Below are positions 18,769-20,295 of a stretch of 32,383 nucleotides of DNA, piece by piece. The translations under genes were made by a program, and so were the position numbers. The DNA lies in contig CAJVXI010000011.1 in NCBI GenBank assembly GCA_913009635.1, forward strand, positions 1 through 32,383. The letters are read 5' to 3'. Numbering within the stretch: the stretch's first letter is position 1; every line of letters starts with the position of its first letter. Under the pieces are notes generated by a model, which had not been told where the DNA came from, did no database searches, and saw only the letters and a program-made list of their open reading frames with translations. Source of the stretch: an uncultured bacterium (GTDB lineage: Bacteria > Patescibacteriota > Minisyncoccia > UBA6257 > UBA9933).

Positions 18769-19554
18769 TCAAGAACTCAAGTTTTCGGACTTCCGGACAG
18801 ACGACAAACCAATACTGCCATCGCGCCGGTCATCCCACCAGTAGGCGATCCGGAGACCACCAAAATCGAAGCTGCCGACACTGACACGGTGGCCGTCCGA
18901 AAGCAAATCCGAGCAACGAGCATAAATATTTTCAAATAAGCGCTCTCCAGTAGCAAGGTAATGACCTATAATCGTGTAAACCATTATTCGGGCTTTTGGT
19001 GTTTCCTCGTTTTCGACAAGTAAAGCTTGCTGTTCATTCCAGGTTTTACTTGTTGAATTAGGCACGATATCCTTACGAATAAGATGCCAGCTTGCTTCGC
19101 CTTTGTCTCTTGCAAAAGATTGCTTATTATACCAGGAATCTTCGTGAGAATAAAAGAGTTTTTTCTCAATTTTCTCGCGAATCTTAAGAATTGACATCGG
19201 AAAAGCAGCAACGAGAATATGAGTTTTTTTATACTCCTCCAAAACACCCTCTGTGAATGGCACTTCAACAAAAAGACCTAATTCTCTTTCGGTTGGATTA
19301 ACTCTAAGATGTTGGATGGCTTTTTCAATACCAAAAAAGTTTTTACCCATAATAGCACAAGCTGTTTTTTGACTAACTGTGGCTTCATAGCCGCCCTGAC
19401 GAATGAATTGCACCACCTTTGTAGCAAGCTTATTCCCCTTACTTTGAATCACTGACTGAGCTTCGGTATCGCCAAGACCTGCTGCCTCAAGTTTCCAAAG
19501 AAGCTCATGCTCCTTGTGCACCAACAACTTACGTTGGCTTACGATGTTTTTCAT
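18769..19554 (-). CDS. Unknown 261-aa protein with GC-rich 3' end (GGLRIAYWWDDRRDGSIGLSSVRK)
   Basis: Long ORF, consensus promoter upstream, strong terminator downstream; no family assigned. Confidence 0.8.
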   Translation of the reverse strand: MKNIVSQRKLLVHKEHELLWKLEAAGLGDTEAQSVIQSKGNKLATKVVQFIRQGGYEATVSQKTACAIMGKNFFGIEKAIQHLRVNPTERELGLFVEVPFTEGVLEEYKKTHILVAAFPMSILKIREKIEKKLFYSHEDSWYNKQSFARDKGEASWHLIRKDIVPNSTSKTWNEQQALLVENEETPKARIMVYTIIGHYLATGERLFENIYARCSDLLSDGHRVSVGSFDFGGLRIAYWWDDRRDGSIGLSSVRKSENLSS

Positions 19555-19633
19555 CGCGCACCTTCTTAAAAAAATTTAGATTTGATATTTATCCCGCTAA
19601 TGCAGGATTTGTAAAAGACCTAATTTAACTATA

Positions 19634-19661
19634 ATTATACACATATTCCAAGCTTTGTCAA
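19634..19661 (-). promoter_or_regulatory. Consensus sigma70-type promoter for the 261-aa gene
   Basis: Minus strand TTGACA (19661-19656), 16-bp spacer, TATAAT (19639-19634). Confidence 0.82.
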
Positions 19662-19689
19662 CTTTATCCGCTTTAGTTAGCCCCGAATA

Positions 19690-20058
19690 AATCCCTTCGG
19701 GATTATGCAAAGCATGCCAAAGCGCTCTAACCGGTTAGAGCGCTTAAACTTTTTTTCTACGCATTTCTGCGCAGTGGATATCTACTGAGATATTAACGTA
19801 GATATCTACATTAATATCTCATGAGATATCTCAGTAGAAAAATCCTGCTGCTACAAGTGGCAATAAAAAAATACGTATTAAAATACGTATTTAATTACAT
19901 AATAAATCCTTGAATAAATTCAAGGATTAAAACAAGGATTAATTCAAGGATTAAAACAAGGATTTATTCAAGGATTTCACTTTACTATCTTATACATGCG
20001 ATCGCATGTATAAGATAGTAAATGTGTGGATGTACGTAAATGTTCTGGCGAATGAACA
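19690..20058. repeat. Dense palindrome and phased-repeat island
   Basis: Perfect palindromes at 19720-19745 (26 bp), 19798-19809, 19814-19829, 19881-19892, 19981-20022 (42 bp); caaggatt x5 at 12-bp spacing; several hairpins. Confidence 0.95.
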
Positions 20059-20064
20059 ATAAAA

Positions 20065-20090
20065 AAACTCGCCCTGGATAGGGCGAGTTT
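20065..20090. terminator. Intrinsic terminator of the 20104-20295 gene
   Basis: aaactcgccc-tggata-gggcgagttt with flanking A/T run. Confidence 0.88.
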
Positions 20091-20103: not shown

Positions 20104-20295
20104 CTAAGCAGCAGGAGCATCTTCTCCTTCTTTAGGAGCTTCTCCTCCTTCAGCAGGAGCTTCAGTAGGAGCATCAGTAGGAGCATCAGCAGGAGCATCA
20201 GATCCTCCTTCTGCTTGCTCTTCAACCATAGGAGTGCCACAACACTCTTTTGCCTCGTCTGAGGTAACATTACATGAATTGCATTTATAAGCCAT
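20104..20295 (-). CDS. Small Cys-rich zinc-ribbon/rubredoxin-like protein with Ala/Pro/Asp/Glu repeat tail
   Basis: MAYKCNSCNVTSDEAKECCGTPM then APADAPTDAPTEAPAEGGEAP; own terminator. Confidence 0.75.
   Translation of the reverse strand: MAYKCNSCNVTSDEAKECCGTPMVEEQAEGGSDAPADAPTDAPTEAPAEGGEAPKEGEDAPAA

Follow-up and report, generated by a model that had tools for sequence, protein, structure and literature searches.

The window analysed here, a stretch of 32,383 nucleotides from an uncultured bacterium of the Patescibacteriota, carries an island of self-complementary elements at positions 19690 to 20058. On one side, the island is bordered by the intrinsic terminator (20065-20090, minus strand, outside the island) of an upstream 63-aa gene (20104-20295, minus strand), and on the other side by the consensus sigma-70 promoter TTGACA-16-TATAAT (19634-19661, minus strand) of a 261-aa open reading frame (18769-19554, minus strand). 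A preliminary description of this DNA had reported a palindrome island between these two signals that is made up of many different self-complementary elements, and all the elements that it named are indeed present. At the edge of the island, two short hairpins, AATCCC-TTC-GGGATT and ATGC-AAA-GCAT, can be read directly (19690-19715). They are followed by a perfect 26-mer of family G, AAGCGCTCTAACCGGTTAGAGCGCTT (19720-19745), similar copies of which are found on contigs C2 and C12, by the short palindrome CTGCGCAG (19767-19774), which may be due to chance, and by a nest of the family F elements TATCTACTGAGATATCTCAGTAGATA and ATATCTCATGAGATAT that is 89% self-complementary over 54 bp (19777-19838). 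Further on lie a degenerate copy of the family E element TGCTACCACAAGTGGTAGTA (19846-19865; better copies are present at L010:1538 and L009:1789), two AATACGTATT units of family C in a 12-bp phase (19870-19892), and the 12-bp phased units of family D, ATCCTTGAATAA and TTAAAACAAGGA (19904-19979), which also form AATCCTTGAAT-AA-ATTCAAGGATT (19905-19928). The island is completed by a perfect 42-bp palindrome of family A with the centre GCGATCGC (19981-20022) and by the weak inverted repeat TGTTC...GAACA (20041-20058). The shortest items, i.e. ATGCAAAGCAT, CTGCGCAG and TGTTC...GAACA, are each unremarkable alone. The two edge hairpins, CTGCGCAG and TGTTC...GAACA were assigned to none of the families. 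The palindrome density of the island as a whole is far beyond chance: counting arms of at least 6 and loops of at most 3, palindromes cover 49% of the island, whereas the other 369-bp segments of the contig average 5.1% and do not exceed 27%, and 300 Markov shuffles of the island average 3.5% with none above 22.5%. No Rfam RNA family was matched above its gathering score in the window. Since all major elements of the island recur elsewhere in the same genome, a chimeric assembly seems unlikely. At the contig end (32222-32283), an Illumina P7/TruSeq adapter (CAAGCAGAAGACGGCATACGAGAT...GTGACTGGAGTTCAGACGTGTGCTCTTCCGATCT, minus strand) lies beside poly-T, and the first residues of a 281-aa open reading frame (MTGVQTCALPIS) are translated adapter, an assembly artefact.

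The preliminary description had considered the island plus the 261-aa gene as one system, and this proposal did not hold. The 261-aa gene is present in 16 of 101 genomes, the own genome included, and the scan of up to 800 bp upstream of 13 homologues for zero-loop palindromes with a score of at least 10 left 11 of them without any. The other two have a single terminator-like hairpin in one case and a position within a parS cluster in the other, and none of the 13 is preceded by an island comparable to that of the window. Moreover, mixed islands elsewhere in the genome adjoin genes other than homologues of the 261-aa gene. Adjacency is what speaks for a unit of island and gene, and we regard such a unit as hardly credible. 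The encoded protein has no significant match in Pfam, NCBIfam or PHROGs, and the gene is best seen as a neighbour with no functional tie to the palindromes. Its promoter and leader (19560-19670) are nearly identical to those of an unrelated 218-aa gene (C16, L011:1490-1600), including the small hairpin ATCCTGCATTAGCGGGAT and TAAATATCAAA; this may possibly be a shared regulatory leader.

The island and its flanks were searched against the whole of the own genome (713 kb, 26 contigs), and the 24 further matches resolve into families A to H. Thus, the earlier statement that the elements share no sequence and are not one amplified repeat is correct inside the island, but it is misleading since the long elements are members of dispersed multi-copy families. 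Family A (36-48 bp, with GCGATCGC or a close variant of it at the centre) has about 10 copies. Family C consists of AATACGTATT in 12-bp phase, with an array on C9 and two units on C10, family D of 12-bp phased ATCCTTGAATAA and its relatives in mixed islands on C9, C10, C12 (twice), C2 and C14, family E of TGCTACCACAAGTGGTAGTA, family F of TATCTACTGAGATATCTCAGTAGATA with further copies on C15 and C10 and in genome G083, and family G of CGCTCTAAnnnnTTAGAGCG with the motif CGCTCTAA(n4)TTAGAGCG. Two families are absent from the window: family B (CAGGTACTTCCACGCGTGGAAGTACCTG) is present in sister islands, and family H (AAACGGCTCA...TGAGCCGTTT) has nine copies on C9, C2, C5, C16, C14 (two), C18 (two) and C1. 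The own genome was sampled in stretches that total about 385 kb and were partly picked for similarity to the island. In a 212-kb sample that included such island-similar regions, 26 palindromes scored at least 13 as compared to none in Markov shuffles. The families recur in mixed islands on C9, C10, C12, C2 and C14, with a block of E, C and D repeated in three islands. Again in a sample partly selected by similarity to the window island, 24 of 44 elements had a neighbour of a different family within 200 bp, whereas 1000 random placements in non-coding DNA gave 6.3 such elements on average and never more than 18. Outside the own genome, the family A pattern matches only one other of the 245 genomes in the order. 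The idea that family A is a variant of cyanobacterial HIP1 was rejected; most hits of the pattern are in cyanobacteria, as single sites with GCGATCGC as the core. Family B was not found in viral contigs.

The partners of the palindromes are located on other contigs. Pairs of family A palindromes on C13 and C6 enclose genes for proteins of 199 and 204 amino acids, and the C-terminal halves of these proteins match PaaX_M (Cas2-like) and Cas2. The two genes are 80% identical at the DNA level, with an alignment that reaches from the upstream palindrome to near the stop codon. The other two PaaX_M genes of the genome (C10, C4) have different matched palindromes on both sides. PaaX_M genes are present in 60 of 101 related genomes, and of the 48 PaaX/Cas2-like genes of the order whose flanks are complete, 35 lie between two matched zero-loop palindromes as compared to one of 316 control open reading frames from the same loci, and this one borrows the palindrome of a neighbouring PaaX gene; at a stricter cut, the numbers are 31 of 48 and 0 of 316. 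The palindromes of these pairs are 30-60 bp long, have no loop and are specific to each gene. In 928 kb, an unsupervised search for matched pairs of palindromes at distances of 150-2500 bp found 49 pairs, 38 of them around PaaX/Cas2-like genes and one around a TrpR-like gene, and the remaining pairs, mostly parS-like, have no open reading frame in between. Clusters of the parS-type palindrome GTTTCACGTGAAAC, some with long perfect arms, are present at L134:14322-14583, L135:14012-14266 and L028:2215-2452. In a phylum-wide sample outside the order, strict pairing is much rarer (3 of 30 PaaX_M genes). The proteins do not pass the PaaX equivalog model (18.5 and 25.3 bits, cut-off 264.55), and it is the PaaX_M domain alone that passes. 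Those of C13 and C6 exceed the cut-off of the NCBI cas2 model TIGR01573 (27.5 and 27.8 bits, cut-off 24.5), whereas the C4 protein remains below it. In the stretches that were read, neither cas1 nor a CRISPR array was noticed. No relatives of the PaaX-like proteins were found in phages and only distant actinobacterial PaaX in plasmids, and a sequence search for a solved structure gave no convincing match.

The arrangement is shared by a second protein family. All four TrpR-like genes of the own genome are enclosed by palindromes, as judged by inspection, and 11 of 29 in related genomes have a matched pair. The gene on C3 lies between palindromes of family G, the family of the window palindrome at 19720-19745, the gene on C19 between those of family B, and the genes on C9 and C1 between palindromes of their own, which by inspection are shorter here. 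Moreover, palindromes of the family G type enclose TrpR-like genes of genomes G019 and G003 and adjoin one in G011. The four own proteins match the Trp_repressor domain of Pfam (34.5-38.8 bits, cut-off 27), remain below the cut-offs for TrpR and YerC, and have no catalytic domain. At least two families of the island, A and G, are the boundary palindromes, and probably also the binding palindromes, of modules located elsewhere in the genome, and the sister islands add family B as a third. An undescribed system, as envisaged in the preliminary description, is possible, but it would consist of palindromes with PaaX/Cas2-like and TrpR-like genes rather than of the island with the 261-aa gene. The layout is thus shared by two unrelated families of DNA-binding proteins, which suggests that the modules have binding in common rather than catalysis. 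The earlier suggestion that the zero-loop forms fit sites for dimeric proteins was, in our view, right. For families C, D, E, F and H, a partner gene was not demonstrated in the stretches examined. Family H is likely a further module family, and the core of family F resembles the palindrome of a TrpR-like module in genome G044 (L227). A family F palindrome at L017:1550-1575 (C15) has a tRNA-like sequence on one side and a 63-aa MazE/AbrB-like gene on the other, and AbrB-like genes may be another partner family.

The Cas2 fold raises the question of whether the protein itself might be an active transposase that nicks or joins DNA at the palindromes, with the solos being MITE- or REP-like elements moved in trans. 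The aspartate of Cas2 is present in all 48 proteins, the Q.SV motif is invariant or nearly so, two of the proteins pass the cas2 cut-off, and a gene with two palindromes and dispersed solos fits the REP/RAYT logic (PMC2817692). The TrpR-like genes have the same layout with no nuclease domain, no target-site signature was seen next to the diverged flanks, and the copy numbers are low, with about 10 for family A. All in all, we consider active transposition by the Cas2-like protein quite doubtful. Cas2-fold proteins are not known to act as transposases. The invariant aspartate would leave nuclease action open for the PaaX-like modules, and it could not serve the TrpR-like ones; as the TrpR-like proteins lack a catalytic domain, the protein alone cannot explain the movement of their modules.

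The palindromes change in a concerted manner. In ten copies of family A, 96% of the pair cells are still paired, and 8 of 18 pairs have changed on both sides as compared to 3.5 in shuffled data (0 of 500 as high); sliding the partner destroys the signal. When the left and right copies within each module are compared, 103 pair positions differ in all, 53 of them on both sides and 50 on one side, and the expectation for two-sided changes under independence, derived from the same counts, is about 9. At an orthologous locus in four species, both copies and both arms have changed together, with GTCCAAATGTACGACCGTACATTTGGAC in three species and GTCCAAATTGACGGTCGTCAATTTGGAC in the fourth. The cores vary (CGATCG with CGACCG/CGGTCG, CTATAG, CCATGG, CGGCCG, CACGTG, CGTACG and others), and the core type follows the tree of the PaaX/Cas2-like proteins, with 15 changes as compared to 20.4 after shuffling (0 of 200 as low). 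The symmetric change could come from selection for a dimer site, from hairpin-templated correction or from both. In the extreme case, quasipalindrome correction would have made and perfected the palindromes as mutational products without any function. The frequent two-sided changes agree with this, as does the symmetry, which continues outside the conserved core with letters that differ from copy to copy. Such a process would leave unexplained why the pairs are found nearly exclusively around two protein families, why the left and right copies within a locus are identical, and why the core is inherited with the protein. We therefore regard a purely mutational origin as improbable, and the correction may act in addition.

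Could the palindromes simply be operators of self-regulating transcription factors, with the dispersed copies as their regulon, nothing mobile involved, and the island integrating several regulators upstream of the 261-aa gene? The module proteins do belong to known regulator families, the distance of the upstream palindrome to the start codon is mostly 0-80 bp, a promoter-like site is present in 27 modules and overlaps with this palindrome in 16 of them, and one family A copy lies directly upstream of an HTH gene on C6. Moreover, several PaaX modules are found at the same place across species of one genus; orthologous modules thus persist vertically, and their movement is therefore not frequent. 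Self-regulation, however, needs no matching palindrome downstream of the gene, and it is the downstream copy that is usually the more perfect one (downstream in 23 modules, upstream in 9). Several solos are located 3' of genes, and the homologues of the 261-aa gene lack the palindromes. The two PaaX modules on C13 and C6 have outer flanks that cannot be aligned and share nothing beyond the palindromes. Finally, modules were missing from the collinear site of a congener in three out of three cases tested: two PaaX modules of genome G018 are absent from G009, where about 78 and 103 bp lie between the matching flanks, and at the third site, an unrelated open reading frame in G009 takes the place of a TrpR-like module of G018. 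Since the flanks have diverged, these three comparisons of filled and empty sites reveal neither a target-site duplication nor an exact junction, and they are compatible with gain as well as with loss. Plain operators are thus a possible account of the palindromes, if a rather unlikely one. Gene-less solos were observed in families A, B and G, among the PaaX types of C10 and C4, and in G018. A double palindrome on C2 was considered as a gene-less module and rejected; it is a 59-bp tandem duplication.

We are highly confident that the island is a mosaic of solo palindromes of these modules. As the best explanation overall, the site is probably a dump of solo palindromes derived from mobile, self-bounded modules with genes for DNA-binding proteins. 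For the mechanism, we lean with some caution towards a combination of binding, self-repression and a mobile gene unit bounded by palindromes: A module of about 0.4-0.8 kb would consist of a palindrome, a gene for a DNA-binding protein, either of the PaaX type with a Cas2-like domain (family A) or TrpR-like (families G and B), and the matching palindrome. A dimer of the protein would bind its own long palindrome, and since the upstream copy often lies over the promoter, the gene probably represses itself. The pair of palindromes would bound a unit that moves between intergenic sites. Solos may arise in two ways: (i) the gene may be lost by recombination between the identical ends, as in solo LTRs, or (ii) the palindromes may be mobilised in trans as REPs are. 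Solos of several families would then pile up at tolerant intergenic sites, and the island in the window would be one of them. It is tempting to speculate, and we do so only tentatively, that the Patescibacteria harbour a new class of minimal selfish elements, in which single genes for unrelated DNA-binding proteins, each with its own fast-changing, self-perfecting palindromes, spread without a known transposase and leave solos that accumulate in intergenic islands. In genome G001, a 208-bp stretch is present with 91% identity at two unrelated places (L130:2700-2905 and L132:5357-5562), perhaps another small mobile element.

In the Patescibacteria, genomes are very small, regulators are scarce and few mobile elements are recognised, and a common module would account for part of their intergenic repeat content. 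Moreover, the modules would show by sequence alone where a given PaaX/Cas2-like or TrpR-like protein is likely to bind, they would provide a set of proteins and DNA sites that co-evolve in nature, and they would bear on the roles of Cas2-fold proteins outside of CRISPR. If the speculation on selfish elements is true, Cas2-type proteins would have taken on another role, the recognition of the ends of a mobile module. In the open-access literature, we found no description of PaaX, Cas2 or TrpR with palindromes in CPR/Patescibacteria. The gene with its two palindromes is thus apparently an undescribed kind of gene module, and this novelty is provisional because the coverage of the literature was limited to open access.

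The proteins of the modules are related to established families. They share with PaaX, PaaX_M (PF20803) and Cas2 (TIGR01573) the homology of the domains including the invariant Cas2 aspartate; unlike PaaX, they have only about 170-250 amino acids with the N-terminal and Cas2-like parts and score far below the equivalog cut-off, and unlike those of PaaX or Cas2, their genes are enclosed by long palindromes. Similarly, the TrpR-like proteins resemble the TrpR and YerC-YecD family (PF01371) in the domain match and in the palindromic DNA site that we predict, but they remain below the family cut-offs and have gene-specific palindromes on both sides and dispersed solos. Like MITEs, the solos are short and non-coding, occur dispersed and are related to the ends of elements that carry a gene. 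Unlike MITEs, each solo is a perfect palindrome throughout, without internal sequence; no target-site duplication was seen next to the diverged flanks, and the modules contain no recognised transposase. The parS and other chromosome-organisation sites are perfect palindromes as well, they are dispersed, and a dedicated protein binds them, as we suppose for the modules, but parS is one conserved sequence whereas each module gene has its own site, which encloses the gene. A parallel in layout is provided by the REP/RAYT systems (with BIMEs and REPINs), in which two palindromic repeats enclose a gene, further copies of these repeats are dispersed as extragenic solos and mosaics, and palindromicity is kept between orthologues while the sequence changes (PMC2817692). 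The own genome has two genes for Y1_Tnp (RAYT-like) proteins, at L051:2832-3527 (C15) and L048:1291-2013 (C8), and the gene on C15 has GAAGT-loop-ACTTC repeats on both sides, apparently an ordinary REP/RAYT pair alongside the modules. It is very improbable that the island families are ordinary REP elements moved by these two transposases: the repeats next to the C15 gene are of another type, and the island families lack both a GTAG-type head and a loop in the middle, and the genes that they pair with are different ones. The modules themselves contain PaaX_M/Cas2-like and Trp_repressor domains only, with no Y1/HUH tyrosine transposase; their palindromes have no loop, and no GT(A/G)G head or non-complementary middle was seen. 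They have about 3-10 copies as compared to more than 100 for REPs, and each gene copy has its own palindrome. With the Y1 transposase, the GTAG-type head and the looped palindrome missing, the modules are not members of the REP/RAYT systems; with enclosed genes and dispersed repeats, both of which we looked for and found, with mosaics of solos and with palindromicity that is kept, they work like them.
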